64,000 nucleotides of DNA from Ehretia macrophylla (Eukaryota > Streptophyta > Magnoliopsida > Boraginales > Ehretiaceae), in the NCBI GenBank assembly GCA_037974665.1, contig CM075769.1, forward strand, positions 20,858,139 through 20,922,138, given 5' to 3'. Shown piece after piece: positions 5,966 through 44,542 of this stretch. Below the pieces are notes generated by a model. It did no database searches and was not told where the DNA came from. It worked only from the letters and a program-made list of their open reading frames with translations. The translations under genes were made by a program, and so were the position numbers. Each line of letters starts with the position of its first letter. Position 1 is the first letter of the stretch.

Positions 5966-6591
5966 GAGGTGTTGAGATAGACCCCCAACTCTTAGCGGTA
6001 GAGGCATAGAATGAGGTTTAGTTGGAGGAGTTACCCTGATTTTAGTGTTGCTGTGTGTTTGTTGCTTGAGGTTGGAGTGTTTAATTGTTAGACTGTGTTA
6101 AGACTTTGCTTGTATTGTATTATGTTATATTTTGTGCCTATGGGCTTGTATATATTTGGAGTAGTTGAAAGATTGTAACAGTTAGGTTGATGTATGGTTT
6201 GAATGGTAGTAGCCTGTAATAGCTTAACTTTACTTTTCGTTTATGTTGCTTGCTTGTCTGTGAATGAAAGCTAGTTGGACGGTTAGTCTTAAATTATAAG
6301 AATGTTTAAATGATAATGTTAGAGTGGGAAGATAAGCGGACTAAAAATATAAGATTTCAATGGCTTTAACCTTCTATGCTTGTGTGTTGTATTGTTTTGT
6401 CTTGCTTAAGGCCGGGATGGCCTTGAAGCTGGGAAAAGTTGTGGATTGGAGTTGGAGAAGGTTGTGGATTGTGTTTGTGGCTTTATATTTTGTTTGCAGG
6501 TAACCAGATTGTCCACTGTACAGAGGAGACTCTGTCCGTTTGTTAGGTCCGGACTTAACCTTGTAGCATGGGGTTATGTCGAAGTGCGACA

Positions 6592-8230: not shown

Positions 8231-8367
8231 AGGTACTTTTCTTCTTAATGATCAGTCGGTTAAAGTTTTAATTGACTCCGGGGCTACACATTCCTTTATC
8301 ACACCTATTGTGCACAAAATGCTAAATTGAAACATGATAAATTTTTGCATAAGATTGTGGTATATAC
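8231..8367 (+). pseudogene. Protease start of element A (split by element B)
   Basis: The aspartic protease signature [11 protein letters not shown] follows the acidic linker EELPDMTAVVEG. The domain is cut at 8367 by element B and goes on at 15940. It is part of a fossil and not functional. Confidence 0.85.
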
Positions 8368-9918
8368 TGTGAAACCCCATTTTTCTATCATGTCTCGTTT
8401 TGCGTGTTTATTCTCGTTTTGCGTGAATTAACCTGTTTATGTGCTATATGACTTAGAATGTGATAATTTTGATATTAATACTCCTAGAACATGCTAAATG
8501 TGCATTCATGAAATTTTCATCAAAAACAGAATCAGAAATTTTATCGTCGGTTTTGATGAATAGTACTTTTGAACACCTGTCAGCTAAAATTTTTACAGGG
8601 GTGTTTTAAACGTCTTAAAAACTAGTCCTCTATTATTAATAGACACATGTTTGATAAAAATTGATTCTGAAACAGAATAGTAATTTAAATAGACTTTTCG
8701 GGCGAAAAATAGCGTTTTTGAGTCAAATAGTGATTTCTTCTAAACCCGATTCTTGCATTGACTTTTGTTGACCTAGTATATATTAATATAAATGTATTTA
8801 TATGTGGTATTAAATGATTTTAGATTAATTGTGCATTCAAAAGACATTTGAAAATAAATAATATGACTTTTCACCTTCTTTTGCAAAAATTGCATTTTAA
8901 GCCGACTCGGGTGAAATTGTTTAAATGTAAAACTTCTTGTCACCTAAAAATAAACTACTTGAGATATTTTAGGTGTTGCATAATTAATTTCAGCAAGAGT
9001 AGTCAAGAAAATGAATTAAAAGACAAGAAAACACTAAAAATAATTAGTTTCCACTTTGACTTTCTTTTATTTATTTGACCTTTGCTTAATATATGATCAA
9101 CACACATTAAAAACAAAGCAAAACACCACCAAAAACACACACAAAACCGTGGTTCATTGTAGGAGAAAGATGAAGACATTTTTCAAAGGTTTTCAATCAT
9201 TTTTCACATAGATTTTGCAATTCAAGTCCAAATCACTTCATTCAAAGCTTGATTTCACTTGTTTGGAATCCATTCTACACATTTCTTGCATCAAAACACA
9301 TCAAAGGTGAGTGAAAAATTCTAGATCTCAAAATGTCATTTTTATGTTTTTGCGTATAAATGAAATTTGAACCGTTAGAATTGTAATATGATGTTAGATT
9401 ATTGCTCCTTGCGTGCTAGGGATCATTTAGTGGTAATACTACGAGTTTCTGTCGAATATAGCATAATTTTTATTTTCCGGGTATTTAATTTAGATTAAAT
9501 TGTTCAAAGTTGATTTAATTGAGTTGCGTTGCTCGAAATCGATTGCTGTTGATTTCTAAATACTTGATAATTACGTGGTAGCACTGTTGTAATGCCAAAT
9601 TTTCGATTACATTGTTCGTGTGAAAATCCAGAAAATTCAACCTTGACACCTTAGGGTTTTAGGGTTACTGGGCATGAATTGGAGGTGTTATGGTGGTTTT
9701 CCAAGGGGGCTAATGTAGTTGGTTGAATGGGTGAGTGTTTGAAACTGATTTGGAGTTGTTTGGATTAGTAGAATGTAAGATATGATTAATTGAAGTTTAG
9801 GTTGTCTTTCTTTAAAATGTTAGATTGAGCCTTAGTTGAATGGGTATGGGTTGAGTGATTGAATTGTGAGTTGTTGGTGGGTAAATTAGAGTTTGATTGT
9901 GTGTTTAATGCATGTTCG

Positions 9919-9945
9919 GTTAGATGGCCTACTTTGTCATCTAAC
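9919..9945 (+). promoter_or_regulatory. Stem-loop I (loop CTACTTT) in B 5' LTR
   Basis: Arms GTTAGATGGC and GTCATCTAAC pair over 10 positions with one G-U, around the heptamer CTACTTT. The same loop with different, still matching arms occurs in families A, C, F, G and H, and with one base changed in E. Copies in this family: 15034-15060, 29859-29885 (minus) and 37223-37249 (minus). Confidence 0.6.
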
Positions 9946-9966
9946 TTAGTTATTTGTTGTTTAACT

Positions 9967-10036
9967 GATTATTGATGCTATTATTGATGAATAAATGATT
10001 ATTGATTGATGATTGATTGATTATTGATGATTGTTA
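9967..10036 (+). repeat. TGATTATTGAT-type simple repeat in B LTR
   Basis: Irregular repeats of TGAT, TGATTGAT and TATTGATGA lie directly after stem-loop I. They recur in the other B LTR (about 15080-15148) and, on the minus strand, in both D LTRs (about 29738-29770 and 37085-37122), so they belong to the family and are not a local expansion. Confidence 0.75.
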
Positions 10037-10368
10037 TGGAGTCTTGGTATGTGTGTGCCACCTCTCGGGCAGCGTTGGGCTGTCGGGTTGATAACGGCAT
10101 GACTGCCAGAGGCTACCCTCAGCTCACATGATGGAGGTGTCATGGAGGGAGGGGCTAGTGAGGTACCTCGGGTGCGTGAGTAATGGGGAGTTATAAGAAG
10201 AATGGTTGAGATCGTAAGGCATTTGGAGCTACACCAACTAGAGTATCCTTTATTGAATGGTTATATAGTTATGTGATGATAATATTATTGATGTTGTGTA
10301 TTTACTTGCTCAAAGGATTATTTTCAAGGAGCTTAGTAAATCTTGCTCGAGATCTATCGGATCCTCAC

Positions 10369-10391
10369 TGGACTTATTATATATAAGCTCA
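10369..10391 (+). promoter_or_regulatory. Stem-loop III upstream of acceptor-like site, B 5' LTR
   Basis: Arms TGGACTTAT and ATAAGCTCA pair with one mismatch and a G-U. The stem ends 24 bases before TGCAG|GT. In D the arms are TGGGCTTAT and ATAAGCTCA. The preceding CCTCACTG is shared with other families. Confidence 0.5.
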
Positions 10392-10415
10392 CTCTCTATT
10401 ATTGCATGTATGCAG

Positions 10416-10507
10416 GTGTTACCGATTTTGACTACGGGTATGTGCCTCCTGAAGAGGGAAATGTGCCGTATGTGGATGAGTCTTATGTACAGGAGTCATT
10501 GCCATGA
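10416..10507 (+). CDS. Candidate LTR terminal exon, family B/D (B 5' LTR)
   Basis: After TGCAG|GT, 29 codons and a stop encode an acidic, tyrosine-rich tail containing DYGYVPPEEGN, VPYVDESYV and ending ESLP. Compared with the B 3' LTR (15531-15622), all three base differences are synonymous. Compared with D, most differences fall at third codon positions. The reading phase after the acceptor is the same in all families. No ATG lies in frame within this exon and no first exon is recognised, so what the product would be is unknown. Confidence 0.4.
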
Positions 10508-10826
10508 GATTATCTTAGTTGTTGTAAAATAATGTTTTGTATAATCTATTTTGAAATGTATGAATATCATATGTATTAAGTTGGAACGGAGGCGTATAAC
10601 AATGATTGGAATGTTGAAGAATGATTATTGTATAATATGGATGCGTTGTATGTTGTTAACTTAATTAAGGAGATGATTGTTGGGATTGTTTATGGAGTTT
10701 GATGAATGATGTTCTAAAGAGGTTGGTTTAGAGCCTCAGTGTCTTAATTATTGTTGTTATACTGCCGAAATTACGTTGCGTCCTGACTAATTGTAGGTAG
10801 GGTCGAGTTGGGGCGTGACATTTAAG

Positions 10827-10840
10827 TGGTATCAGAGCCA
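10827..10840 (+). other. Primer binding site of element B
   Basis: TGGTATCAGAGCCA, complementary to the initiator methionine tRNA 3' end, lies six bases after the LTR end. The following leader (GTCAGCCGGGGTAT) matches that of D. Confidence 0.93.
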
Positions 10841-13446
10841 GGTTAGCTGTCAGCCGGGGTATCCTCAGAATGTGGGTAGTGGTCTAAGCATGCAAGTATG
10901 TATTAAGTGAAAGAAAAGTGAAACATATGTTAATATGTTTATGTGATTAATTTACTTATGTGTCTAACTTTCTATGTGACCAGTATGCCTTGTGTGTTAA
11001 GTGAACTAATGTGGTCAATATGTTTTATGTGACAACGTGCCTTACGTACTCAATGTGTTGTAATTAATGTGCATTATGTGATTAATGTGTATTATGTGAC
11101 AATTGTGTTTTATGTGATCAAAGTGCCTTATGTGAAGTTTGTTGCTTATGTGACTTTAATTGTTTATAACTTACTTCTGTGATATAACCTGTTTATGTGA
11201 TGTTGGCTTCTTATATGCTGAATTGTCTGTTATGTGATAATGTTATATTATATGATACTCATGCATTACGTTGTACCTGTTTTCATGTGATGTAATTGTA
11301 TATATTCTATAACTGTGGGTGATTCTTTTAGGTGAAGTAAGGATGACTGCAAGAGTTTTCGGAATAGAGGTAGGCCATGATTTTGAATTATTATTATTCT
11401 AGAAGTTTATCAGTTAGATTTTAATTGTTATGTTTATGGATTTTAGTTTCGGCTTAGTGGATTGATCTTGATGTTCCTTTACCGAGAATGAAGTTGTTCG
11501 AGGAAATAGCAATGTATCTTGATGATTATAATTACTTTTGTTGCCATGTTTAACTTGTTATTACTTGGAGATGAATTATAAGTTGAGGTTTCCATGAGGT
11601 TGTGATTAGACACTTTTGGAGTCTCAACTCAGATTATACTTTCTTGAGGTTATTTTAGAATGAATTTATTTGAGGAATTAGTGATGTATATTTGTGAATG
11701 GAATGAAGTGTAGTATAACATGTGAATATTTCTACTATTTGGGATTGCTATATTATTAATGGATATTTTGGAGTTTTGATCTTTAAACCTTGGAGACAAT
11801 TGGAGTGATTCCTGACTAAAGTTACTTTATTCGAAGATGTAATTGTTGGGAGATAGAATTATTTGAGGAAATAAGAATGCATTTTGGTGACTGGACATTT
11901 ACTTGCCTACATCAAGCTTTTGGGTTCTAGGTGGTATGACTTTCTAAATTGTTGATTGGGGATTCTCTTGTGTTATAATAGGTTAGCATGAATCTGTATT
12001 GTGTTATCAGATTTTGGAGTCTTCATTAGTTAATCTTGTTAGGTAATCAGTGATTTATCTTGTTTAGTGATTGGTCTGGTACGGAATGTAAAATTTTGGA
12101 GTGATTTATCTTGTTTGGTGATTGTTATGACTCCTTAGGTTCTCTAGATCTCCTTAGTGTCTTGTTTTGGAGGAAGATAGATTGTAGGATTTGACTTGTT
12201 GGTGTTTAAGTGTATAGGTGGGACACCCTTCTTGTACTTCATAATTCTATCAGTCTTATTATTCCCTTTTACTCTATTCTCAGTTATTTGAGAGAGAGTT
12301 ACACTTTTCTAGCATATCAATTGTTTCTTGAAAGTTTTGCTTATTGGATTAATGGATCCTATACTCATTTGACATTGTTTCTATTCTTAGCATTCATATT
12401 TGCTTCTTATAGCAATGTCACTTATTGGAGTTAATGTTTGAGACTTCTATATTTCATTTTATATCTCCAGCCATTGATTTCAATATTTCATTTCATCCTA
12501 TTACTATTCATTTGAAAGTAATTTTTCCTTTGGTATACCATTTTACTTGTTCGAATTCCACTTGCTTGATGTACTCCCTACCTAAGTACATCATTGTCAT
12601 TCTTGTTGATCCTTGTAATCCTATTGTTTCATTATTAAATCTTGAGCCATTACTTTGCTTGTAATTGCTCATTTAATATACTCAGCATTGTCCTTTCTTA
12701 TTTATACTTCTTTGGTTATTGCGTGCTGAGATACTCATTATCTTGACACTCATATTTTCTATTGAATTAATAATCTCTTATTTCTTAATTTCATCTCGCC
12801 TCAAGTACAACTTACTTGTTGGTTCCTTGAACAATCATCGAGAATTGAAATGTCTACTTGTTCAGGAATTTTGTTCAACATACTCAGCACTGTTTTGACT
12901 CGTCATCATCCTTTGTTCGTACTTATTTAATTGATAGGTGCTGAGACATTTCTTATCTTAGTTATCATGCTTTCTTATTAAACTATTAGCCTCTTGATTC
13001 TCTAACCTGTTTGACCTCTTGTTCACTTGATTGTTGGCTCAAATATGATTTTTCATATTCGTATTTCCTTGTAAATTTCATAAGAGCCATATTCTGACCA
13101 ATGTCACTTTTGAGATATTCCCTTGATCAGTAATCATTCATGTTATCGTAAAAGAGTTTTAAAACCCTCGGGGTGTTCATAGAGCTCTTTTGTGTAGTAG
13201 GGGATGATTGATAATTAGTGGTGTCATGCTAAGACTTTAGAGTTGCGATTTCTTTCATATGCAATATGATATTAGGTAGGAGAGAATTATGAATTGAAGA
13301 TTGTCTTGGAATTATGATCATCAACTTGCAGTCAACAGAGGTTCTTTTGAGGTCTTTGGTTAGGTGTCATCCTAGGAGATAAATGAGAACTAAGAGAAGT
13401 ATTGTTAAGTGTAACGATTGAGGATTTAATTGTCTGTCAGTTTGAG
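10841..13446 (+). other. Internal region of element B, no recognisable coding
   Basis: The first part is leader shared with D, ending in a short gag-like start (MTAR near 11343) that soon stops. The remainder, about 2 kb, is AT-rich and shows none of the gag, protease, RT, RNase H or integrase motifs. Between about 12200 and 13100 the strand is T-rich (many CTT and ATT runs), unlike the flanks. I find no similarity to the other elements there; its origin is unknown. Confidence 0.75.
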
Positions 13447-13482
13447 AATTGCGCGGATGCAATTGTTTTAAGGAGGGGAGAA
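13447..13482 (+). other. Stem-loop V and polypurine tract of element B
   Basis: AATTGCG/TGCAATT pair around CGGA (13447-13464). They are followed by the polypurine tract AAGGAGGGGAGAA just before the 3' LTR. The tract would prime plus-strand synthesis. Confidence 0.85.
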
Positions 13483-15934
13483 TGTGAAACCCCACTTTTC
13501 TATCATGTCTCGTTTTGCGTGTTTATTCTCGTTTTACGTGAATTAACCTGTTTATGTGCTATATGACTTAGAATGTGATAATTTTGATATTAATACTCCT
13601 AGAACATGCTAAATGTGCATTCATGAAATTTTCATTAAAAACAGAATCAAAAATTTTATCGTCGGTTTTGATGAATAGTACTTTTGAACACCTGTCCGCT
13701 AAAATTTTTACAGGGGTGTTTTAAACGTCTTAAAAACTAGTCCTCTATTATTAATAGACCCATGTTTGCTAAAAATTGATTCTGAAACAGAACAGTAATT
13801 TAAATAGACTTTTTGGGCGAAAAATAGCGTTTTTGAGTCAAATAGTGATTTCTTTTAAACCCGATTCTTGCATTGACTTTTGTTGACCTAGTATATATTA
13901 ATATAAATGTATTTATATGTGGTATTAAATGATTTTAGATTAATTGTGCATTCAAAAGACATTTGAAAATAAATAATATGACTTTTCACCTTCTTTTGCA
14001 AAAATCGCGTTTTAAGCCGACTCGGGTGAAATTGTTTAAATGTAAAACTTCTTGTCACCTAAAAATAAACTACTTGAGATAGTTTAGGTGTTGCATAATT
14101 AATTTGAGCAAGAGTAGTCAAGAAAATGAATTATAAGACAAGAAAACACTAAAAATAATTAGTTTCCACTTTGACTTTCTTTTATTTATTTGACCTTTGC
14201 TTAATATATGATCAACACACATTAAAAACAAAGCAAGACATCACCAAAAACACACACAAAACCGTGGTTCCTTGTAGGAGAAAGATGAAGACATTTTTCA
14301 AAGGTTTTCAAGCATTTTTCACATAGATTTTGCAATTCAAGTCCAAATCATTTCATTCAAAGCTTGATTTCACTTGTTTGGAATCCATTCTACACATTTC
14401 TTGCATCAAAACACATCAAAGGTGAGAGAAAAATTCTAGATCTCAAAATGTCATTTTTATGTTTTTGCGTATAAATGAAATTTGAACCGTTAGAATTGTA
14501 ATCTGATGTTAGATTATTGCTCCTTGCATGCTAGGGATTATTTAGTGGTAATACTACGAGTTTCTGTCGGATATAGCATAATTTTTATTTTTCGGGTATT
14601 TAATTTAGATTAAATTGTTCAAAGTTGATTTAATTGAGTTGCGTTGCTCGAAATCGATTGCCGTCGATTTCTAAATACTTGATAATTATGTGGTAGCGTT
14701 GTTGTAATGCCGAATTTTTGATTACATTGTTCGTGTGAAAATCCAAAAAATTCAGCCTTGACACCTTAGAGTTTTAGGGTTACCGGGCATGAATTGGAGG
14801 TGTTATGGTGGTTTTCCGAGGGGGCTAATGTAGTTGGTTGAATGGGTGAGTGTTTAAAACTGATTTGGAGTTGTTTGGATTAGTAGAATGTAAGATATGA
14901 TTAATTGAAGTTTAGGTTGTCTTTCTTTAAAATGTTAGATTGAGCCTTAGTTGATTGCGTGTGGGTTGAGTGATTGAATTGTGAGTTGTTGGTGGGTAAA
15001 TTCGAGTTTGATTGTGTGTTTAATGCATGTTCGGTTAGATGGCCTACTTTGTCATATAACTTAGTTATTTGTTGTTTAACTGATTATTGATGCTATTATT
15101 GATGAATAAATGATTATTGATTGATGATTGATTGATTATTGATGATTTTTATGGAGTCTTGGTATGTGTATGTCACCTCTCGGGCAGCGTTGGGCTGTCG
15201 GGTTGATAACGGCATGATTGCCAGAGGCTACCCCCAGCTCGCATGACGGAGGTGTCATGGAGGGAGGGGCTAGTGAGGTACCTCGGGTGCGTGAGTAATG
15301 GGGAGTTATAAGAAGAATGGTTGAGATCGTAAGGCGTTTAGAGCTACACCAACTAGAGTATCCTTTATTGAATGGTTATATAGTTATGTGATGATAATAT
15401 TATTGATGTTGTGTGTTTACTTGCTCAAAGGATTATTTTCAAGGAGCTTAGTAAACCTTGCTCAAGATCTATCGGATCCTCACTGGACTTATTATATATA
15501 AGCTCACTCTCTATTATTGCATGCATGCAGGTGTTACTGATTTTGACTACGGGTATGTGCCTCCTGAAGAGGGAAATGTGCCGTATGTGGATGAATCTTA
15601 TGTGCAGGAGTCATTGCCATGAGATTATCTTAGTTGTTGTAAAATAATGTTTTGTATAATCTATTTTGAAATGTATGAATAGCATATGTATTAAGTTGGA
15701 ACGTAGGCGTATAACTATGATTGGAATGTTGAAGAATGATTATTGTATAATATGGATGCGTTGTATGTTGTTAACTTAATTAAGGAGATGATTGTTGGGA
15801 TTGTTTATGGAGTTTGATGAATGATGTTCTAAAGAGGTTGGTTTAGAGCCTCGGTGTCTTAATTATTGTCGTTATACTGTCGAAATTACTTGCGTCCTGA
15901 GTGATTGTAGGTGGGGTCGAGTTGGGGCGTGACA
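13483..15934 (+). repeat. 3' LTR of element B
   Basis: The length is 2452 bp, nearly identical to 8368-10820 and collinear along its whole length. Stem-loop I is at 15034-15060, the acceptor-like site at 15530/15531, and the end is at 15934 followed by the TATAC duplication. Confidence 0.93.
15531..15622 (+). CDS. Candidate LTR terminal exon, family B/D (B 3' LTR)
   Basis: This is the second B copy of the 29-codon acidic tail, with VPPEEGN and VPYVDESYV. Three bases differ from the 5' LTR copy (in codons for T, E and V), all silent. The LTRs overall differ by about 2% including indels, so an open frame by itself says little; the silent pattern is the point of interest. Confidence 0.4.
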
Positions 15935-17820: not shown

Positions 17821-20800
17821 TGTAACGCCTCGATCTCTCACGAGACCGGAGGCTCTAAAAACCAAGCTATTCTCAACCCAATTCCAACCCGGTCTCAAAA
17901 TTTTAAGGAAAACGGACAGAGTCTCCTCTGTGCCATGGACATTCTGAAAACCTGCAAACATTCAAATAAGCTATAGAACAACACTAAAGCCATTTCCAAA
18001 ATAAAAATCTCAACTTTAAGGCCATCCGAGCCTTAAGACATGCAAACAATTTAGATACACACAAGCATGCATTCAAAACTTAACTTCTTTACAAAACCGC
18101 TTATTATGCCACTCCATGATAGCTTTTAAGCATTCTTAAAAATTGAAAACAACTCGTCATTCACTCCCAAGCATGCAAAGAAGCTAAGAGCAGAAATACA
18201 AGTTATTACACGCCACAATTCCATAACACTTACTACATCTACTTAGCTTTCAAACCTGCAACTACCCAAATATATATACATAAGCCCTTAGGCTCCAAAA
18301 AAGAATAGAAAGTAGAAAAATTAGGGTCTTCCACAGTTTAGCGACAATCATTCAAATCTCAAGTAATAGCACACAGCAATCAGGTCAACTTCTCCAACTA
18401 AACCACCTGAAACATGTTTAGTGAGGTATGAGCAATCACAATTGCCTAGTGAGGGATAAGGTCTACCGGGGACGTGCAATGCAGCAGTTAGTATAAATAA
18501 AGCATTTTACAAAAAAAGAGCAATTGAAACAACAAGTTACCACACATTAAAAATGATACGATTCACTTGTTCTTCAATCACGAATCACAAGCCACGAACT
18601 AAAATCCCAATGTAATAATGACACTGATATAGATAAGCCGGCATCCCTTATAACTCCAAAATGGGTGTACTCCGGATGTACCCCAAAATCCTACGACCCA
18701 ACTCTCCCTGGGGGGCATCCCAAGCGAGAGAGGGACTGGGTAACTATAGTAGCCGAGGTATACCAGCAAGCTCGATGCCACCCAGTTTCCACGACACTAC
18801 CATGCCTAAATGGTTGCGCAACCACAATGTAATGCACTCAAAATGATAACAACAGAATACATCAATAAACACATGATTGAGGGACAACAAAGTAGGTTGC
18901 CTTCACACACAATATATAGACAATAAGTGCACATAATCTAAGTAAAAGTAAATAAACTATTATGCACATAAGGATGAAGTCTCCCTCACCTGGAATTAAG
19001 CCAAGCATGCTAAAAGAATAGCTCAGATTTACTTCAACTCCCTGAATTAGCTCAAGTATGCAACCCTAGGGTGTTCCTATAAGTTTAGCAATTAACTATA
19101 TCAATTCCAACTCAACTCTTACTTAATTCAACCTTACAACATTAGAAGCTAGATTTATAATCACTTATTCACACAAATTCATAACCCACACACAATTAAG
19201 CTACAATGTTCACCTTACCATATCATTAGAGAACATAAGATATATTAGAAGCATCAAATACCATTAAGTTAAGATCATAAGTTATAAATTCCAATTACTT
19301 TTAATTACAATAATCAATAATCATATAACTAGATGAGTTACCCTTATAGTCCTACTCACTTAGCATACAATGTTTATTAGAGTTTGATCTTAACAAAGTA
19401 TAAGAAGTATAAACATTATAACAAGATATAAGCATTAAATATGAAAATAACTACACCAACACAAAGGGGTCAATGACCGATGATCACGAAACTTCACGAA
19501 ATGCTCACAAATGCCATATAACAACATGTAAAGGCAAGATATACAAGCACCAAAGCTAATTCAAAGGCTAAGCATGAAACCCTGAGTTTCCCTTTTGTTA
19601 TCCCAAGTCATTTAACTCCAAACTGAGGCTAAGGCTCAAGATTCACCAACTAACTATTCTAATCTTCTAGTTACACATTATGACACACGTAGAACCCTTG
19701 AAATCATTCATTAACCCGAATTAGCCACAAAAGCTCCGATTTCCCCTTTGTGCATTTGTACTACAAGTATCTTAATCAAAGCTCAACTAAGAGTTAGAAA
19801 AGCACATTTAGTCCCTACTTACCCTAAGAACACCAAATATATCAACCAAATTCACCCGGATTTACGTTTGACCCAAAACCCCTTTGTAACACAAGTCATT
19901 TTTCTTCCAATCACAAGTTAATGTTCTAGTTAAGCGAGCGGGCTATTCCATACTTTTAATTATCCCTTATGGCACCCCTAGGACCCTAGAAACTATCCAA
20001 TTACCTGCATTTAGCACAAAAGCCCCAGTTTTACTCTTTTGACTTTGTACTACACGTTCCTCATCCAAGACTCAAATGGAGGCTAGCAAAACTTAATTAG
20101 GTCCTAAATAGTCTAGGATTACTAAATGTGGAGGCCAATTCAACTTAGATTCGCGATAACCCCGAAACCCCTTTCTAAAAGTCGGCTATTTCATTCTTTC
20201 ACTAGGTTACGGGCAATTAAACCCTACAAGGCCTTCACACTACCTTCATTAACATCTAAAGTAGTTACTAGAACCATTAATTCAAGCTACAAGGTCTGAT
20301 TTTGCAAATCCCTAATTTTTCCGTCACTATTCATGCCCTACGATCAACAAATGATTTCAATCGTTTAAACTATGAAACAATAGCATAAATTAGGTCTCTA
20401 CTACTTATACACAACATACATAAGCATATTTAAGCATTGCATGATCATAATATAGCAAATCAATAAATTCAAGAAAGTTAACATATATTTCAAATGCAAA
20501 AATAATATGCAAAACCCTCACTTAACACGTGTAGGAGCTCTTAGAAGGCTTGCACACACCCTAAACTACTTGCTTCTTGCTTGGCTTGGCTTGGCTTGAA
20601 GATTTGATGAGCAAAATCCTTTCATTCTCCTCTTATGTTGATTCTCGGATTTGCTACAGTAATTCCTGCATCTTTTTTTTTTTTTTGGTTTTGCTAGTTA
20701 TGAGCTTATGTTGTGTGTTGTGTGAGTATATGTTTGGGTGAGCTATTTTAGTGAGAGTGTGTTGTCAAAATATGAGTTAAAATAGCTAGAACCAAGTCCT

Positions 20801-21092
20801 AAACTGCAAATCAATGCTTGCTAATTAAAACACTAAGTTAAGTTATGTAACACTATTGATTAGATTGGCAAAACATTTTCTAAACGAGTGCTCCTATCGC
20901 TCTAAGCTCAAATGGACATTTTTCTTATTCCTAAAACAATTAATATGATTTAATAAAAATACTAATTCATGGTAATTCAATAGTTGAAAAATAGAATGAA
21001 TAGTGATTAAAGAAAACAACAAGCACAAAAGAAATGCGCAAATAGTGGATGCAATAGTAAGCTAGAAGTACGGTTGAATCTCGGGCGTCACA
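17821..21092 (-). mobile_element. Solo LTR, gypsy family F/G (3.27 kb)
   Basis: It begins TGTAACGCCTCG and ends GGGCGTCACA, with exact ATAAT duplications at 17816-17820 and 21093-21097 inside the integrase of A. It is the same family and orientation as the LTRs of F but about 0.8 kb longer, partly through the internal duplication near 19660-20220. Conserved parts: tetraloop hairpin 17916-17931, stem-loop III 18429-18448, stem-loop II 18663-18683, palindrome 18812-18823 and stem-loop I 18879-18904. Minus-strand solo LTR; no internal sequence. Confidence 0.9.
19660..20220 (-). repeat. Diverged tandem duplication (about 300 bp units) in LTR G
   Basis: The segment with GCCACAAAAGCTCCGATT and TTTGTACTACAAGTATC recurs about 300 bases later as GCACAAAAGCCCCAGTT and TTTGTACTACACGTTCC, each followed by GAGGCTAGCAAAAC-like or matching sequence. 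The F LTRs (near 49140-49450) keep the second unit and only the end of the first. This explains part of the length difference. Confidence 0.6.
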
Positions 21093-22412
21093 ATAATGGC
21101 ATTCTCAAATTTAAGGGCAGAATTTGTATTCCAAGTGAGCCAACATTAAAGAAAGAAATACTGGCAGAGGCACACAGTTCAAAAAATATTATCCACCTAG
21201 GTAGTACAAAGATGTACAGGGATTTGAAACAAAACTTCTGGTGGAATAACATGAAAAGAGAAATTGCTGACTATGTAGCTAGATGCTTGAGGCTAAACAT
21301 CAGAGACCTACAGGGTTGCTACAACCATTGGCTATTCCTAATTGGAAATTGGACCATGTTACTATGGATTTCGTGTCAGACTTGCCAAGAACTTCGAGGG
21401 GTATTGATTCAATTTGGGTTGTTGTTGATAGACTGACCAAGACTTCTCACTTTATTTCCACGAAGAAAATAGATAACTTTGACAAGCTAGCGGAATTGTA
21501 TATTGAAAATATTGTCAAACTTCACTCCAAAGAGTATTGTATCCGATAGAGATTCTAGATTCACATCTCAGTTCTGGCAAAAGATACAGAAAGCTTTAGG
21601 CACGACGTTGAGCTTCAGCACATCATATCACCCTCAAACTGACGGGCAATCGGAAAGAGCTATCAGAGTACTTGAGGATATGTTACGAGCCTACATTCTG
21701 GACTTTGGTAAGAGTTGGGAGAGATATTTGCCACTTGCAGAATTTGCCTATAGCAATAATTACCAAGCTACTATTGGCATGGCACCGTATGAGGCACTGT
21801 ATGGGCATAAGTGTAGATCTTCTTTATATTGGGATGAGATTGGAGAGATGAAAACTATTGACCCTACTTTGATACCAGAGATGAACAAAATGATCGATAA
21901 TGTGTAGCTTATTAAGAAAAGAATGCTTGCAGCTCAAAGTCGGCAAAAGCGTTATGCAGATAGATGTCGTCGTGATCAAGAGTTTGTTATGGGTGATTGT
22001 TTCTTAAAATCTCTCCTCGTAAAGGTCTAATTCAACATAGAAAAGGGGGTAAACTTAGTCCAAGATATGTGGAACCGTTTGAAATAACTGAGAAAGTTGG
22101 CGCATTGGCTTATAGACTAGCTTTGCCTCCGAGTTTGGGCAGACTTCATGATGTCTTCCATGTCTCGATGCTTCAGAAATATCAGCCAATTCCTTCTCAT
22201 ATTCTTGAGCCTGAGCCTTTGGAGATTAGTGAGACTTTGTCGTATACTGAGAAACCTCTTCGGGTTGTGGACTAGAAGGTTAAAGAGCTCAGAACTAAAA
22301 TCATTTCATGGTTAAGATTCTTTGGGATCATCATGGGCTAGAGGATTCTACTTGAGAGAGAGAGGATCAGATGCGAGATAGATATCCAGAGTTATTCGCT
22401 GAATTATGTAAG
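21093..22412 (+). pseudogene. pol of element A, last part: integrase and chromodomain-like tail (broken)
   Basis: After the target duplication the integrase goes on: a zinc-binding-like segment ([20 protein letters not shown]), a catalytic-core region ([43 protein letters not shown]), the GPY/F-like module ([14 protein letters not shown]) and a tail resembling the chromodomain region (ILEPEPLEI). Integrase joins element DNA to the genome, and chromodomains steer it toward marked chromatin. Several breaks; a fossil. Confidence 0.88.
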
Positions 22413-22448
22413 AATTGCGGGGATGCAATTAGATTAAGGGGCAGAGGG
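22413..22448 (+). other. Stem-loop V and polypurine tract of element A
   Basis: AATTGCG/TGCAATT pair around GGGA (22413-22430), followed by the purine run AAGGGGCAGAGGG directly before the 3' LTR at 22449. Confidence 0.8.
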
Positions 22449-24023: not shown

Positions 24024-26323
24024 TGTCGTACCCCGACCCAACCCCGCAAAATGCCAAGTCCAGACCCGACACACGAACGGAGTCTCCTCGGTACCGCAGA
24101 CAATCTGAAATCCCTACATTCAATAAAATACATGCAAAACCACAATATTCATTCAGAACAAGACAACTTCCTTTAAAACAAACTTCCTTTCATTAACCAT
24201 CTTGACTTAAACCCAAAATGCCATGCATACTACACAGGTACTTATGCCACTAAGCAGTTAAACCATTAGCATGCAGTTCTTTACTAGATATTCAAGTACA
24301 ACATTACAACTTTTCAACTTATACAACACAAGACCATTGAGGCCTCCAAAATAGAACTACATACATGGCCACAAGCCTCAAAATAAAGCGACAACCAAGT
24401 AACAAATACATCTAGCATTGGCCCGCCACAAAAGTCTGGTAACCAACCACCAGCTAAGCAAAAAAAGTGCAATCAAGGAAACATTTCCACCTGCTCCTCC
24501 TCAGACCTCAAGCACCACAATAGGAATAGCCTAAACTACTCCTGTAAAATATGGTATAGAAAGGGATGAGCAAAAACTATTGCTCAGCGAGGCTTAACGG
24601 TCTCACGAGACGGAGGTGAGAGAAGAGTGCAATGCAAATAGCCAAGTAGGACAAACAATCAAAACATTCAAGACCAACAAGACTAAGCCAACTAACCAAG
24701 TCAAGACAAGCATTAAAAGCATTTAGGCTATAACCACACAATTAAAGAATACGATTCACTTTCCACGAGCAACTTCAATCACGATTTCGATGACGACGCG
24801 CCGACCCAACCACCTAATAACTTCAGTTTGGAATATCCCGGAAGTACCCAATCAATACTACGACCCAAATCTCCTTGGGAGGCAACCCAAGCAAGGAAGG
24901 GAATAGGACACGGAGCTAGAGCAACCAACCCTGGCAACCCGAGGCTACCCAGAAAGGCTCATCACACCCGCGCCTGACTCTATGAATGTAATACAATAAA
25001 CAATGCAACAATCAAGCAATAGAGCCACACGTGGGAGAATAATAAAGTAGGTTATCCTCGCACGCAATAGCAACAATTGGTATACATTCCAATCATAAAC
25101 AACTATAACAAGCATAATAAGCAACAATAAGCATTCTAAAAGCATAACATTGTAAAAAGCAACAAAAACACACAACGACCCTAACTTTCAAAATGCTACT
25201 ACTTCCAAACGAGCCTCGAGTTTTGGAAACCGACTTTACCACTCATCCTAGGACACCGTAAAGCACGACTAAAAGCCACGAAACCCTACTTTAACCTAGA
25301 ATTCCTGCAAAGCCCCGATTTTCCCCTTTGTTTGTTTGAACTACAGTTACTCTAACCAAACACCCAACTAACGCCATAACCACACCAAAAGTGCTTCCAT
25401 GGCCTCCCGACACAATGCCATCACGCAAAATGAGATACCGACAAACTCGACCAAAACGACCCCAACATGAACCAAGGCATTTTCCTCTATTTTTCCATTA
25501 CACGACCCAAATAAACCACGCATTTAAGCATTCTAACATACCTAGCATCTTTCTACATCAACAGAACGCAAAACGGAACAAAATTGAAAATTGAGGGTTT
25601 TACTATTCATATTTTACTAGTTCATTAACAATTTAAATTGCAATAGCCAAATTCAACCGTAGAAAATGCTAAAAAACTATAAATACATGTTCTACAATCA
25701 TCAAGGAACATTCTTCAAGCAATAAAACAATCAGAATAACATTCTACGCATAATTCTCAAAAATTAAAGTTTAGACACAATATATTCAAATGCGCAAATA
25801 ACGATGCATCCCTCACCTTAGCTGCTAGTAGACACTAGAAAAACAACGTTAAGAGCCTCGGGAACGACCTCAAGCAACCCCACACGATGATTTGAAGATT
25901 TGAGTTGAATTTTTTTTTTCCTTCTCCTTGGACCTTTCGGCTTTCTCCCTTTTTTCCAGCTTTTGTGCTTTGTTTTGCTTATATTAAGTATAAAACAATG
26001 ACAACTACTAAGTCAAAGGGTCAATGGGTGGTCAAGGTTAATTAAAAATGGTCAACTAGTTTATTTTGTAGGCAAATTTAGCTTAAACCAGGACAACAAT
26101 TGTAATTAAACTAAAGCTAACTAACTAGAAATACTAAAACTCTAAAAATACTATTTTTACTATTTGCCGAGGACTAGAAAACCCTCTCTAATTATCACTC
26201 TTGAAATGCAATGCACTTTACGACGATGGACGAATAACATTTAAATATCAAGGAATATAGGAAAAATATAATTTTTTAGAAAAAGAAACATAAAAATTTC
26301 ATGTTCTGGGGTCGTGTATTACA
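24024..26323 (-). repeat. 3' LTR of element C
   Basis: In plus-strand order: end motif TGTCGTACCCC, tail exon (degraded) ending at 24541, stem-loop III TGAGCAA/TTGCTCA (24567-24586), stem-loop II (about 24831-24849), the conserved block, stem-loop I around AAAGTAG (25031-25063), donor-like AAG|GTGAGG (25817/25816), TACTATTCAT (25601-25610) and the end TATTACA at 26323. Confidence 0.92.
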
Positions 26324-26359
26324 CCCTATCCCCCTTAAAACAATTGCGTCCACGTAATT
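26324..26359 (-). other. Polypurine tract and stem-loop V of element C
   Basis: On the minus strand AATTACG/CGCAATT (one mismatch) pair around TGGA, followed by TTTTAAGGGGGATAGGG next to the LTR. The plus-strand span of the stem is 26342-26359. Confidence 0.8.
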
Positions 26360-26399
26360 TTTACCTAATCAATAAACAACTCCGGATATTGACTCTGAA

Positions 26400-28841: not shown

Positions 28842-31174
28842 TGTCACGCCCCAACTCGACCCCACCTACAATCAGTCAGGACGCAACGGAATTTCGGCAG
28901 TGTAACGACAGTAAATAGATTTCGAGGTTCTAAACTAACCTCATTAATAACATTAAACATCCAATTCTATAACCATACAAACAACAACTCCTCAACAGCA
29001 TAACAAAACACAACATAACCGTAATATACAATAATCAGTCTTCGTTATCTGCCTCCGTTCCAACATAACATACAATACCTCAACCTTATCATACATTTCA
29101 AAAATAAGTTGAGACACATCTACAACTTAACCATAGACAAAAGAAAGCCACTAAGTTAACATCATTTGGATCATCATCTTTCAACATCTATTACAATAAG
29201 AACCATAAAGCATATAAAAGTCTATTAAGCTAATATACATGACATTAAACAACATATAATCATGGATAAGACTCTGGAACATATGACTCGTCCACGTAAG
29301 GCACATTTTCCTCCTCAGGAGGCACGTACCCGTAATCCGGCTCTGCAACACCTGTAAGCATGCAATAATAGAGAGTGAGCTTATATACATAAGCCCAGTG
29401 AGGATCCGATAGATCTCGATAGTATTCACTACGCTCCTTGGATTTAGTCCTTTGAGCAAGTAAACACACAACTACAATAATAACATTATCATCACATAAC
29501 TATATAACCATTCAATAAAGGATACTCTATTTGGTGTAGCTCCAAACGCCATCACGATCTCAACCGTTCTTCTTATAACTCCCCATTACTCACGCACCCG
29601 AGGTACCTCACTAGCCCCTCCCTCCATGACACCTCCGTCATGCGAGCTGGGGGTAGCCTATGGCAGTCATACCGTTATCAACCCGACAGCCCAACGCTGC
29701 CCGAGAGGTGGCACACAAATACCAAGACTCCATAATCATCAATCATCAATCAATCATCAATCAATCAATTAAGAGATCAGCAACGAAAGTGCCCGATTCC
29801 TGAACTCAATAATAATCAATCAATAACATCAATATTAAATTAAACAACAAATAACGTAGTTAGATGACAAAGTAGGCTATCTAACCGGACATGCATAATA
29901 TACACAATTAAACCCTAAATTACTCATCAACAACTCACCATTCAACACTCGAACACCACCCAACCATCTAAAGGCATCGTTCAAGAAATTAAAGAATGAC
30001 AACCTAAACTTCTAAAATTCATAACTTACAATCTACTAATCCAAACATTGCCAAATCAGTTCCTATCACTCACCCATTCAACCTACTACATTAGCCCTCT
30101 CGGAAATCCACCATAACACCTCCAAATCATGCCCGATAACCCTAAAACCCTAGGATGTCATGGCTGGATTTTCCGAATTTTCACACGAATAATGTAATCA
30201 AAAATTCGGCATTACAATAGCGCTAACACGTAATTATCAAGTATTTAGAAATCGACGGCAATCGATTTCGATCAACACAACTCATTTGATTCAACTTTGA
30301 ACATTTTAATCAAAATTAAATACCCGGAAAATAAAAATTATGCTACATCCGACAGAAATTCGTAGTATTAGTATATAATGATCCCTAGCATGCAAGGAGC
30401 AATAATCTATCATCAGATTTCAATTCTAACGGTTAAGTTTTCATTTATGAGCAAAAACATAAAAATGACATTTTGAGATCTAGAATTTTTCTCTCACCTT
30501 TGATGCGATATAAGCCTAGGAATGCGTGCTATGCGTGCCCAACAAGCAGAATCCAAGTCGGTGCGAAGTTCTACGGACAAAAACTATGTTTTTCTTTGAA
30601 AAATTGGATTGAAAAGCTTTGAAAATCTCTTTCTTTTTCTCTCTTCTTTCTCTCGGCCTTGTGTGTGTTTGTGGTGGTGTTTTGTGTTGTGTTGAGTGTG
30701 TGTTGATGATATTAGCTTATTTGGTCAATAATTAAATAAAGTCAAAGTTAATTTAAATTGGTATTTTTGTGTTTTAATGACTTTAATTGCATTTTATTGC
30801 TCACCAAGCTCAAAATAATTATGCAACCCCCAAGATATCTCAAGTGGATTATTTTTAGGTGACAAGAAGTTTTACAATCCAATAATTTCACCCGAGTCGG
30901 CTTAAAACTCGATTTTCGCAAAAGTCGGTGTAAAAACCCTAATAAATTCTTAAGCCGATTTTAAAACTGTTTTCATCAAACACAGGTCTATTAAAGTCCG
31001 TTGACTAGGTATAGAAGGGTTAAAAAGACCAGTTTCAAAATTTTAGTGGACGTGTTTCGAAAACACTATTCCTTAAAAATCGACGATAAAATTTCTGACT
31101 CTGTTTTTTATGAAAATTTCATGAATGCACATTTAGCACGTAAAACGAGATAAGCAGGAAAGTGGGGTTTCACA
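28842..31174 (-). repeat. 3' LTR of element D
   Basis: In plus-strand order: TGTCACGCCCC, tail exon 29260-29351, acceptor-like site, stem-loop III TGGGCTTAT/ATAAGCTCA (29376-29397), TCAATCAATCATC repeats, stem-loop I (29859-29885), donor-like AAAG|GTGAGA (30498/30497), a leader region with no ATG rich in CACAAACACAC, and the end GGGTTTCACA. It is about 100 bp shorter than its partner near the sense start. Confidence 0.93.
29260..29351 (-). CDS. Candidate LTR terminal exon, family B/D (D 3' LTR)
   Basis: After TGCTTACAG|GT, 29 codons and a stop encode an acidic tail with PDYGYVPPEEEN, VPYVDESYV and ESYP. The two base differences from the other D LTR (36613-36704) are both silent (P and D codons). 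Against B, at least eight of roughly fourteen codon differences are silent. Its length is the same in all four B/D copies. Function and first exon are unknown. Confidence 0.42.
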
Positions 31175-31210
31175 TTCTCCCCTCCTTATAGAAATTTCGT
31201 CCTCGAAATT
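31175..31210 (-). other. Polypurine tract and stem-loop V of element D
   Basis: On the minus strand AATTTCG/CGAAATT pair perfectly around AGGA (31193-31210), followed by TATAAGGAGGGGAGAA and the LTR. In this family the stem reads TTTC/GAAA where others have TTGC/GCAA, a paired change. Confidence 0.85.
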
Positions 31211-31240
31211 CTTACTTGATGTACGGAATAGATCTGGGTA

Positions 31241-34200
31241 TTACTGCTGCATCTGATCTCGTCTCTCCCACGTAGCTTCCTCAATGCCGTGATGCTTCCA
31301 CAACACCTTAACCATCGGAATCCTCTTCGACCTCAACTCTCGGTCCATCTGATCTAGAATACGAATCGGACGCTCGTCATAAGTCAAATTCTCTCGAAGC
31401 TGTAACGGCTCTGGCTCAAGAATATAAGAAGGATCCGGATTATATTTCCGTAAATTAGACACGTGAAATACATCGTGGACATTAGAGAACTTCTCCGGTA
31501 AAGCCAACCGATATGCCAACTTACCAACCCTGCCAGTAATCTCAAACGGCCCAACAAATCTCGGACTCAGCTTTCCACCTTTACCATAACGAGCAAACCC
31601 CTTTCGAGGAGACAATCTCAAGAAAACCCGATCTCCAACTGCAAACTCCAAGTCTCGACGACGCTTATCAGTATAACTCTTGAATCTACTCTGCGCCGTA
31701 AGCATTCTCTGCCTGATCAACTGAACATTCTCAATCTTCTCAAGAAGTTCTGGCATGATAGTCGGATCAACAATCTTCATCTCTCCTACCTCGTCCCAAT
31801 ATAAAGGTGAACGGCACTTACGACCATAAAGAGCTGCGAACGGTGCCATTCCAATAGTAGCTTGATAACTATTGTTATAGGCAAACTCGGCAAGTGGTAG
31901 ATGTTTCTCCCAGTTCTTCCCGAAGTCCAGAACACAAGCCCTAAGCATATCTTCTAGAATCTGAATAGTCCGCTCAGACTGACCGTTGGTCTGTGGATGA
32001 TACGCTGTACTGAAGTTCAACTGAGTACCCAAAGTCTCCTGAAGTTTCTCCCACAAACGAGAAGTAAATCGAGGATCTCGATCGGAGACAATACTAGATG
32101 GAATACCGTGAAGTCTAACAATCTGATCCAGATAGAGGTCCGTCAACTTTGTAACCTCATCTCCCATCTTCATGGCAATAAAATGAGCTGTCTTCGTCAA
32201 ACGATCCACGACAACCCAAACTGCATCATTACCCCTCGGTGATCTAGGCAAACCAGTGACGAAGTCCATCGTAATATGCTCCCATTTCCACTCTGGTATA
32301 GCCAACGGCTGAAGCAAACCTGCTGGTCGTTGATGCTCAGCTTTCACTCTCTAACAAGTCAAACATCTAGATACAAACTGAGCAACCTCTCTCTTCATGT
32401 TGTTCCACCAGTAATGTTGCTTCAAATCCCGATACATCTTGGTTCCACCGGGATGAATAGTATATTTAGAATTATGAGCTTCCTCCAGAATACCTCGCCT
32501 CAAGCTCGGCTCATCGGGAACACAAACCCTGTTCCGAAACCGAAGAATACCATCCTCATGCAGTTTGAAGTCAGACTGATCATCCGTGATCTGATCCTTG
32601 ATCTTCTGAAGTTTAACATCAAGTTGCTGAGCTTCCCTGGTCTGAGACAATAATAAAGGCTGAATACGGAGATGTGAACACATCACCCCAACCTGAGTCA
32701 ACTCTGGTCTCCAATAACTAAACTCCTCAAGAACCTCCCACTTCTTGACAGCCAAACAAGAAATACTAGCCTTCCGGCTGAGAGCATCTGCCACAACATT
32801 TGCCTTTCCAGGCAGATAATTGATAGAACAATTATAATCTCCAAGAAGCTCCATCCACATCCTCTGGCGCATATTTAACTCCTTCTGTGAGAATAAGTAC
32901 TTAAGACTCTTATGATCAGTGAAAATCTCAAACCTACTACCCCATAGATAATGACGCCACTTCTTGAGTGCAAAGACAACTGCTGCCAACTCAAGATCAT
33001 GAGTCGGATAGTTTTCTTCATAAGGCTTCAACTTTCGAGAAGCATAGGCAATAACTCGGCCATCCTGCATAAGAACACATCCCAAGCCCTCCTTGGATGC
33101 ATCACTGTAAATGACCATATTATCGGTCCCCTCTGGTAGAGCAAGTACTAGAGCGGTAGTTAACCTCTTTTTCAACTCCTGAAATCCACTCTCACACTTC
33201 TCGTCCCAATTAAAGATAGTTCGTTTCTGAGTCAACTTAGATAGTGGCCCCGCAATCTTTGAGAAGTCCTTGACAAACCTACGGTAATAACCCGCCAAGC
33301 CAAGAAAGCTACGGACATCAGTAACACTCTCTGGCCGCTTCCAAGACATCACCGATTCAATCTTAGTGGGATCTACAGAAATACCGCTCTGTGTAATAAC
33401 ATGGCCAAGAAAAGAAATCCGTTGCAGCCAAAATTCACATTTGCTGAACTTGGCAAACAACTGATGCTCTTGCAACTTCTCTAATACAAGCCGTAGATGT
33501 TGCTCGTGCTCCGATTCAGATTTAGAATAGACCAAGATATCATCAATAAAAATTACCACGAACTGGTCCAAGTACGGCTGAAAGACTCGATGCATAAGAT
33601 CCATGAATGCTGCCGATGCATTGGTCAAACCAAAGGGCATAACAACAAACTCATAATGCCCGTACCGAGTCCTGAAGGCAGACTTCGGAACATCCTCCGT
33701 GCGAATCCGAAGCTGATAATACCCCTGCCTCAAATCAAATTTAGAATAGACTTTGGCTCCCTGAAGTTGATCAAACAACTCATCAATCAGTGGCAAAGGA
33801 TATTTATTCTTGATGGTCACCTGATTCAAACCACGATAATTAATACACAACCTCAAGGTACCATCCTTATTCTTCACAAATAAGACTGGAGCTCCCCAAG
33901 GTGAAGAACTCTGCTGAATGAATCCTTTCTTCAATAACTCCTGTAACTGAGTCTTCAACTCGTTCAATTCAGCTGGTGCCATCCGGTACGCCGATTTAGA
34001 AATAGGTTGAGTACCGGGAACAAGATTAATCACAAACTCTATATCCCTCTCTGGCGGCAATCCTGGCAACTCCTCGGGAAATACATTAGGATATTCCCGG
34101 ATAATAGGGACTTCCTCTAGCTGTAGCTTATCAGATGGCTTGTTGATCAAATAAGCTAGATAACCCGAACACCCCTTACTCACCAACTTAACGGCTTTAG

Positions 34201-35899
34201 TTGCTGAGATAACAAAACTCGTCTTAGTACCCCGGTTACCCGCTACCTCTACTACTGGCTGATCCGGCAAGCGAAACTGTACTACCTTGGTTCTACAGTT
34301 CAACTGGGCATCATACTTAGAAAGCCAATCCATACCCAGAATAACATCATACCCCCGGATAGGAAATAAAATAAGGTCCGAAGGAAAATTATGCCCCTTA
34401 ACATGTATTATACAATCCTTACATACTAAGCCAGTAACATACTTATCAGTCAAAGAGGTACTAATCTCAACCACATAAGGTAATCTTTCAGGTTGCAATT
34501 TAACACGTTGCACACAAGCAGGAGTAATGAAAGAATGCGTAGCACCAGAATCAATCAACACTTTAACAAGTTGATCAAGTATAAGGAAGTTACCTTCCAC
34601 AACTGCAGTCTCCTCAGGCATCTCCTCCATATCAACTGCATAAGCCCGAGCCTGAACCCGCGGCTGCTGTGGTACACTGCCTGTAGGCCTACCCTGGTAA
34701 CCCTGAGTCGCTGCCCGACCCTCAGTCCTCGCATATCTAGGGCAATCCTTCGCCCTATGCTCGATGCTACCACAACCCAAACATGTCCCTGCCTTTACCC
34801 TGCAGTCGGACTCCACATGCCCTGGGCGCTTGCAGTAATTACACTGCGATGATGTGGCACTAACACTGCCCCTAGAAGAACCAGAAGCTGAAGAAGCAGC
34901 TGATACAGCCTGCTGCTGAGGTCTCACCACACTAGGCCTGTACTGACCCTGAGATTGGGCTGGCCTATACTAAATCTGAACCTGATATGGCCTCTGCTGA
35001 AACTGAGGTCGATAGTAACTCTGCTGACCCTGTGGCCTATAAGAACTCTGCTGGGCTGGTGGCCTGTAGACAACCTGCTGTACTGGAGGCCTATATATAA
35101 CCTGCTGGCCCTGTGGCTGATACGGCCTCTTACTAGGCTGACTGGAGACAATCTGATCCCCTTTCCTCTTCTCTAACCTAGATGCTGCATCAAAAGCCTC
35201 AGTGAAGATATCATAGCGATTCAGAGCCATTGCATCTTGAATCTCGGGCCTCAATCTCAACATAAATCTACGGGTCTTCCTCTCCTCCACAGCTACAAAC
35301 TCCGGTGCATACCGGGACAACCTAGTGAATGTAGCCTCATACTGAGCCACAGTAGAATCCCCCTGTACCAAAGACAAGAACTCAGCCTCTCTCCTCTCCC
35401 GTGCAACCCTCGGGACATACTTATCCCTAAAAGCAGTCAGAAAGGTATCCCAAACATACGGAACACCCCGGGTCTCCCAACTGGTTCTCACAGTGCGCCA
35501 CCATTCCTCTGCCTCATCATCAAGCAAATAGACAGCACAAGTCACCTTCCGCTCATCAGTGTACCCGAGAGAATCAAAAACTTTCTCTAACTTACTAATC
35601 TACGCCTCGGCCTTCCTATCATCAGGCTCTCCCTGAAATCTAGGAGGATAGTACCCCAGAAACTCCTTCATAGTACCTCGACCGTGATTACCTCCCTGTA
35701 CATTCTGTATCTGAGCCTGCAACGCCTGAGTCTGAACAGCCTGACCTGCTAACAACTCGGCCTGCCCAGCCATCAAATCTGCAATCCAATCCATTGCTGA
35801 CCCTAACCTGCCATCACCCCTATCACTGCCCTGTGCCACATTACCAGGGACCTCATCTACAATCTCGGGCCTACTACGAGTCCTCGGTCTACCGGTCAT
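31241..35899 (-). pseudogene. gag-pol of element D (broken, least damaged)
   Basis: On the minus strand gag begins MTGRPRTRSRPEIVDE at 35899, the first ATG in a good context. Domains: gag helical region to about 35000; Q- and Y-rich linker; two CCHC knuckles ([14 protein letters not shown] and [14 protein letters not shown]) about 34840-34735; protease ([11 protein letters not shown]) about 34565-34100; RT ([49 protein letters not shown]) about 34060-33290; RNase H ([31 protein letters not shown]) about 33130-32720; integrase ([42 protein letters not shown]) about 32560-31560; GPY/F module ([16 protein letters not shown]); and a chromodomain-like tail ([18 protein letters not shown]) ending near 31241. 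These proteins package, copy and insert the element. Fossil, about three to five breaks. Confidence 0.93.
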
Positions 35900-36193
35900 C
35901 GTACTAATCAAAGAGTTAGCACAAGTTATAGCACATAAACAGGTTATATACAACTTTTAACACATAAACAACAAACTCATATAAAACACATAGATCACAT
36001 AAGTTTCAATCACACAAACAAATTGATCACATAATCACATAAGCACTTAAATCACATAATCACTTAATCATTTAGTCATATCAATACATATTTCACTTTT
36101 CTTTCTTTTCACACATATTTCATGCTAAGACCATTACCCACATTCCGAGAATACCCCGGCTGACAACTAACATGCGCTCTGATACCACTTAAA
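35900..36193 (-). other. Leader and primer binding site of element D
   Basis: The minus strand of 36176-36187 reads TGGTATCAGAGC, the initiator methionine tRNA site, six bases from the LTR. The rest is AT-rich leader with repeated CACATAA and ATCACATAA units on the plus strand (about 35980-36070), similar to the TATGTGA repeats in the leader of B (about 10920-11300). Confidence 0.9.
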
Positions 36194-43328: not shown

Positions 43329-44542
43329 GTTTGTGATACCGGCATATCGTGGTTCGTGGATCGTGCTCTGTGGTTCGAGGGTTGGAGTGATAAGGGTCAA
43401 AGATCGTATCATTTTTAATGTGTGGTACCTTATTGTTTATTCGTACTTTAGCTATTTAACTACTTTACTTGTATTTAATTGTTGCATTGCATGTGTGACG
43501 CCCATACCTGGCATATAGATTTTTAAATTAGAATTGCATTTTTATTTTATTAAATTTCATTTTAGACAAAAACGTGCCATGAAAAATTTTCATGTTTATT
43601 CAATTCTACTTATTTCATTTGCTTAGAATGATTATTTTATTCTTTTATTTATTAGACTTTACTTCAATTATATTAAATTTATTTTTGGTGTGAAGCTCTG
43701 ATCCGGAACTTTACTTATGATTATTATCTACAATTACTAAATTAAGTAATGAAATTACATGAAATGATTACATTAGTATTATCATGTATATTTATTAAAA
43801 ATTTGAATCTAATTACTTTATGATAAATAATTTGCTATTTTTTCATTGTTGTAATTATTTTAATTAAGTTTAATCAACTTGCTCAAAATAACTACTTTAT
43901 TATCTTAATATCTTATTTACTAAAATTTACTTTATTAACATTTCAATTAATTTAAATTGCTATTTGAATGTGAAGTCCCGAATTTGAGAGTAATTATTTT
44001 GTTATTATTTTACCATTTAACTTTACTTGAGTTGCAATTAATTGATTTACATGGAATAATTGATAGATTATATTCATTGTTGTGTCTATCTTATTTGAAT
44101 TTGTTTAATTATATTTAATTGACTTGCTTAGAGTAATTGCTTTACTCTTTATTTACTAGAATTCACTTCATTTACACTTTCGTTAATTGATTTAATTTTA
44201 TTATTAAAGTGAAGCCGAACCCGAAAATAAATGTTTTACTTATTATTGTTACTTACATTTATTAAATTAAGTAATAGAATTACGTGAAATAATTAATTAT
44301 TATTATTCTTATAATTTGTAATTATTTAATTTAAAGATTAAATGACTTTCGGGACAATTATTTTAATATTTTATTGATTTAAATTATTTTGTATGCCTTT
44401 TAAATAATTTGATTCACCGCTCGTATGAAGAATCGGGGCCGGAACTGAATGAGCTAAGTGGTAAAAATGACATTTTAGATTTTCTCTTATTAGTTTTGAC
44501 CATATTAGGTAATTTAGGACCATACATTACATTATGTATATG

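Follow-up and report, generated by a model that had tools for sequence, protein, structure and literature searches.

Self-comparison and open reading frames showed that the window, i.e. the whole analysed stretch of 64,000 nucleotides, consists of nested plant Ty3 LTR retrotransposons. The Pfam matches in element D (Retrotrans_gag, RVP_2, RVT_1, RT_RNaseH, Integrase_H2C2 and rve) follow the Ty3 order of gag, protease, reverse transcriptase, RNase H and integrase. At the integrase end of D, SH3_Tf2-1 and rve were matched and no Chromo model was (Pfam, E <= 0.001); the C-terminal end of its pol (...YPxLF), recognised by eye, looks chromodomain-like. From the domain order and a general resemblance, we take the elements to be Tekay (Del)-like. 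LTR ends were sought as TG..CA termini with five-base duplications. Such ends delimit elements A (63-54493), B (8368-15934), D (28842-38626) and F (47875-54181), an F-like copy (17821-21092) and the E region (43494-47494); for C and H they were sought in the window and not found.

Within the window, no gag-pol match was recovered from B or F. The part of B between its LTRs (10825-13482) lacks such a match, yet the tail exon described below is intact in this element. B might be what it resembles, a large non-autonomous derivative with an LTR copied from a coding partner. An inverted repeat of the AATTnCGnGGAnGnAATT type lies just 5′ of the polypurine tract in five elements, D (31160-31200), A (22410-22440), C (26340-26360), B (13446-13465) and F (50370-50395), and also in loci outside the window. 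Another conserved feature is a G+C-rich block about 200-350 bases 5′ of the tail exon acceptor (10050-10200; homologous e.g. at 18640-18740, 46565-46666, 48719-48808 and 63335-63422), which is shared between families and is the source of many cross-family matches in the self-comparison. Rfam gave no matches across the window.

The earlier note had described a short acidic reading frame of 14-29 codons, ending in a stop, inside the LTRs of several families. We found this frame, which begins two bases into the segment, open at nine of the ten places cited. The cited copies of A, B and E are on the plus strand and those of C, D, F and H on the minus strand. Both copies of B (5′ LTR, 10416-10507, 29 codons and TGA behind a GCAG acceptor; 3′ LTR, 15531-15622) and both copies of D (3′ LTR, 29260-29351, 29 codons and TGA behind ACAG; 5′ LTR, 36613-36704) are open. 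The same is true of the C copy at 41477-41544 (C5, in the LTR at 41037-43326), the copy in a C-related LTR at 63011-63075 (C2, acceptor CAG), the 3′ LTR copy of A (47571-47644), the 5′ LTR copy of F (52201-52277) and the E copy (47052-47098, 14 codons and TAG). The H copy (1949-2010) had been called worn, and it indeed contains an in-frame stop and does not end in proline. Searches with nhmmer added four copies, bringing the total to 14 LTR copies, and none of the four keeps the whole frame. These are the 5′ LTR copy of A (5966-6039, in-frame stops), the other LTR copy of C (24473-24541, acceptor CAG, reading frame lost through a stop and an insertion of one base), the 3′ LTR copy of F (48399-48475, acceptor CAG, one in-frame stop) and a shortened F-like copy near 18407.

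The frame was said to follow directly after an acceptor of the YAG/G type. CAG is present in 10 of the 14 copies, including other C and F copies, and the site is worn in A3, A5, C5 and F5. The statement fails for several of the very copies on which it was based, since A reads CAT/G and both C at 41544 and F at 52277 read CAA/G. The claim that no in-frame ATG is present also needs to be divided. Among 11 copies inspected, four of them from B or D, an ATG is absent in the seven other copies, and B and D have one three codons 5′ of the acceptor.

The open peptides share a characteristic end, all seven of seven terminating in proline before the stop codon and carrying a net charge of -4 to -8; the worn H peptide ends in glutamate. 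We searched both strands of the window for YAG sites followed by a frame of 14-30 codons in the same phase, which gave 807 frames. Of these, 59 end in proline and 13 combine a proline end with a charge of -4 or lower. All 13 are the tail exon or its sub-frames, and the acidic Pro-stop signature is thus more than chance in the window.

Selection on the frame had been argued from pairs of LTRs. The differences listed for B1/B2 (three) and D3/D5 (two) are all silent, exactly as described. Because the LTRs of a pair diverge after insertion, the B and D pairs provide no evidence of selection. Three of the five pairs decay freely, with replacements, stops or a frameshift, as is to be expected once an element has inserted. 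Among the 15 differences of the A pair are 4 silent changes, 6 replacements and 2 stop codons; the F pair has 7 differences (1 silent, 4 replacement, 1 stop), and the C pair one stop and a one-base insertion. We therefore rejected the argument from LTR pairs. The comparison of C5 with C2 had been given as seven silent changes and one codon indel; these are present, but four replaced codons had gone unmentioned.

The situation is different between families. B and D differ at 20 sites, 14 of them in third position, which bears out the observation that changes there are mostly third-position ones (pN/pS 0.20; values as low in 1 of 5000 column shuffles). C5 and C2 show 14 differences, 9 in third position (pN/pS 0.16; 3 of 5000), and A and F 32 differences, 16 in third position (pN/pS 0.47; 47 of 5000). 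In shifted frames pN/pS ranged from 0.74 to 3.04. The earlier note had called for a comparison with the flanking LTR, and here the third-position bias of the exon was reached by none of 897 other ungapped windows in B1-D3 and none of 723 in B2-D5. In the same sliding-window control the bias of C5-C2 was matched by 3 of 484 windows, so this comparison alone makes a weaker case. The B-D alignment has no indels in the exon, and of the 23 gap events outside it 18 break the frame. A large gap opens directly after the stop codon. Purifying selection on the LTR reading frame as a protein is supported by these sequence comparisons between families, and not by the pairs.

Where the earlier note knew of no first exon, there are now two candidate phase-1 donors, both in the gag-pol of the element itself. 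In A and D, just 5′ of the polypurine tract, pol runs into a GTAAG donor whose phase (1) is that of the LTR exon (D, minus strand, 31211-31215; A, plus strand, 22408-22412). At the corresponding place C has a donor-like GTAAA (minus strand, 26360-26364) in phase 0, off by one in a frame-broken copy. An unprompted screen covered the coding region of D: of its 341 GT dinucleotides, 202 could be aligned in both A and C, and 53 were GT in all three. Among these 53 the pol-end GTAAG had the best minimum donor score, 2.0 vs 0.17 for the next, on a donor matrix that was assumed and not computed. When every GT in the coding part is ranked, the pol-end donor is third of 363 in D and eighth of 300 in C; that of A is modest, with a score of 2.0 and a place outside the top ten of 289. 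As families A, C and D are related, the agreement of phase in A and D does not amount to two independent draws. B and F have retained the inverted repeat by the polypurine tract and not the GTAAG, which is weak support as their breakpoints may fall just there. No intact element in the window unites the donor, an open pol and the exon; the pol of D is interrupted by stops, including one within its end.

We also looked for related elements elsewhere. Scanning prokaryote genome contigs with an integrase alignment recovered 21 related loci, presumably contamination from eukaryotes, of which nine were examined at the pol end. Four of these (L006, L008, L009 and L013) were set aside as not Tekay-like, being only 33-45 % identical, and five are close (L001 to L005). 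L001 has GAG/GTAAGT at the pol end, the best of its 237 GTs, in phase 0, on a contig that ends short of the exon. L003 has TAG/GTAAAT, third of 203 GTs and in phase 1, the two better-scoring GTs at 479 and 3383 being in phase 1 as well; this contig, too, ends before the expected exon position. GTAAR is absent from the pol end of L002 and L004 (both with an in-frame stop there) and of L005 (neither stop nor donor). The LTR of L004 contains the hairpin described below and the acceptor, with no acidic Pro-stop frame behind them. The pol-end donor thus recurs beyond the window in some lineages (L001 and L003), next to a lineage with an ordinary stop and without the tail (L004); the cases are few. 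Three matches to a primer-site pattern (L043, L045 and L046) showed no comparable exon on inspection. A protease-reverse transcriptase alignment found no relatives in the prokaryote genome contigs, nor did three protein queries and one DNA pattern in viral contigs. Phages gave no match, plasmids only distant matches to bacterial records, and 297 + 392 more genomes of two contaminated genera only the known loci.

The LTRs have further conserved features. Eight copies, from B, C, D and F, have preserved a leader donor, AG/GTGAG, about 1.1-1.3 kb 5′ of the acceptor. In the 5′ LTR of B (AAAG/GTGAGTG, plus strand, 9307-9313) it bounds, with the acceptor at 10415, a putative non-coding leader intron, and in D (AAAG/GTGAGAG, minus strand, 37855-37861) it lies inside the 5′ LTR; the other leader donors are at 14422, 30497, 42819, 25816, 53604 and 49787. 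The LTR thus resembles the front of a gene, with an AT-rich promoter part, a leader exon, a donor, a putative intron of 1.1-1.3 kb and an acceptor. A leader intron lying wholly within the LTR would need to be retained in the genomic RNA. Slightly 5′ of the acceptor, a hairpin stem of six pairs is kept across the 14 copies (10369-10391, plus strand, in the 5′ LTR of B). Of its 78 cells 89.7 % are paired, a value reached by none of 500 shuffles, and slid registers gave 32-41 %. Two pairs show covariation with changes on both sides. The hairpin may aid splicing or promoter function.

The reading that we prefer, to which we give about an even chance, is that the LTR frame would serve, in the 3′ LTR, as the terminal exon encoding the end of the polyprotein and be reached by splicing. 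Transcription would begin in the 5′ LTR and pass through gag-pol, and the pol-end GTAAG, located 3′ of the chromodomain-like integrase end and 5′ of the polypurine tract, would be joined to the acceptor in the 3′ LTR. The polyprotein would then gain an acidic tail of 14-29 residues ending in proline. The stop codon and the poly(A) site would both fall in the LTR, and the exon would lie in its R part. Since splicing would take out the polypurine tract together with most of U3, the spliced RNA could serve only translation, and the unspliced RNA would be the genome. The copy of the acceptor in the 5′ LTR would probably be used also by the leader donor upstream in the LTR. Beside the integrase end, the acidic tail may play a part in targeting or in the assembly of particles. 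The sequence itself shows the frame and its phase, the protein-like evolution, the acidic Pro-stop end and the conserved donor with its phase in A and D; splicing, the location of R and the poly(A) site, and the function of the tail are inferred.

The same terminal exon could instead be joined to the second candidate donor, at the border of gag and protease, giving a short Gag-only mRNA (shGAG) and a Gag with the acidic tail. This donor reads AAG/GTAAC in D (minus strand, 34589-34593) and AAG/GTACT in A (plus strand, 8233-8237) and was third in the list of the screen for GTs shared by A, C and D. It ranks first of 363 GTs in D (AAG/GTAACT), fourth of 289 in A and fourth of 203 in L003, in phase 1 in all three. 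The glycine codon at the border is also GGT in all three further Tekay-like loci (L003, L034 and L007), but the GGT-A is partly forced by the conserved protein motif there, a Gly followed by Thr, Asn or Met. The donor is weak in L007 and in L034 (score -1.1) and lost in C (TGT). Such splicing would supply the excess of Gag needed by a single gag-pol ORF, and a BARE donor at the start of the protease region is reported to give a Gag-only mRNA (PMC3735527). On the other hand, the intron would be 5.2 kb long in D, and the conserved pol-end donor would be left unexplained. We regard the gag/protease donor as the main rival or as a second user of the exon, and consider it rather unlikely. One LTR exon might even serve both same-phase donors, the gag/protease donor for a Gag-only mRNA and the pol-end donor for a Gag-Pol mRNA. 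Splicing would then remove the polypurine tract and sort every spliced transcript to translation, and the same acidic tail would be put on Gag, integrase or both; this combination, too, we consider unlikely.

Other explanations do without a polyprotein tail. The segment could be non-coding, with a role as an RNA element such as an exonic splicing enhancer that follows the leader intron's acceptor, its acidic codons being a mere reflection of purine-rich GAR repeats. L004 speaks for this, as the presence of its acceptor and hairpin without the acidic frame means that the acceptor has another use, and so does the C exon, which is rich in GAG and GAA (purine fraction 0.62). The exons of B and D, however, have a purine fraction of 0.53, near the 0.50 of the window, and the third-position changes between them include many transversions and pyrimidine changes. 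Together with the codon-length indel in C and the constant Pro-stop end, this makes a pure RNA element improbable. A small protein made from the LTR alone, either from the leader exon joined to the tail exon or from an unspliced micro-ORF, could draw on the conserved leader donor and on the ATG upstream of the acceptor in B and D. Yet the leader exon in the required phase 1 has no Met 5′ of its donor in any of eight copies and so cannot start the tail frame, and in C an in-frame stop sits at the junction, in D at or near it. The upstream ATG is absent from A, C, E, F and H. We rejected the leader exon as first coding exon and the unspliced micro-ORF as the common form, and hold a protein from the LTR alone to be very improbable. 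Finally, the open frame may be shared merely by descent, without selection on a protein. The segments are short (20-29 codons) and carry few substitutions, open frames of 29 codons are not rare, decay is seen in three of the five LTR pairs and the phase bias of C5-C2 is not unique. The shuffle and sliding-window controls and the window-wide signature search all count against chance, which we likewise consider very improbable.

LTRs are customarily annotated as non-coding. Retroviral nef and MMTV sag are proteins coded using LTR sequence, but they are separate accessory proteins and not a tail exon of the polyprotein. To think of LTRs as non-coding, as in the earlier note, is too strong, as the gag-pol ORF of CRM and of several Reina chromoviruses reportedly extends into the 3′ LTR (PMC3605345). 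CRM and Reina (Bingo) are close parallels, being plant chromoviruses whose 3′ LTR encodes the C-terminus of the polyprotein, but there the ORF is contiguous over the LTR border (PMC3605345). In the window, the pol frame ends some tens of codons at most past the border in A, C and D, and the exon lies about 1.8 kb further in (in D), so it would need splicing to be reached. BARE1 and EVD are likewise plant LTR elements, with alternative splicing at the gag/protease border and separate RNA pools for translation (PMC3735527, PMC12786077); they belong to Ty1/copia, and the BARE acceptor is described as an internal site 104 nt away, outside the LTR, three residues being added by frameshift (PMC3735527). 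Ogre (Tat) is a Ty3 element in which an intron between protease and reverse transcriptase is spliced from part of the transcripts, but this intron is internal, and the available text of the report mentions no LTR exon (PMC6317226). Cer1, a CERV and LTR element of C. elegans, produces a spliced mRNA in which gag exons are linked to a downstream exon (PMC10309623). The literature searched, which covered few subscription journals, contained no report of a terminal (discontinuous) coding exon in a Tekay LTR.

If the preferred reading, splicing of the pol end to a terminal exon in the 3′ LTR, is true, the annotation of polyproteins would change for a very abundant class of plant retrotransposon. 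It would also offer a simple answer to how retrotransposons keep mRNA and genomic RNA apart, a question still open in the field, and an acidic tail beside the chromodomain could bear on integration sites.

As a minor observation, L001, L003, L004, L005 and L007 are contigs with a plant-type Ty3 polyprotein in published bacterial assemblies, those concerned being of Streptomyces clavifer, Mycobacterium sp., Labilibacter sediminis and Robertmurraya kyonggiensis. The plant-type Ty3 contigs in these assemblies are probably contamination.
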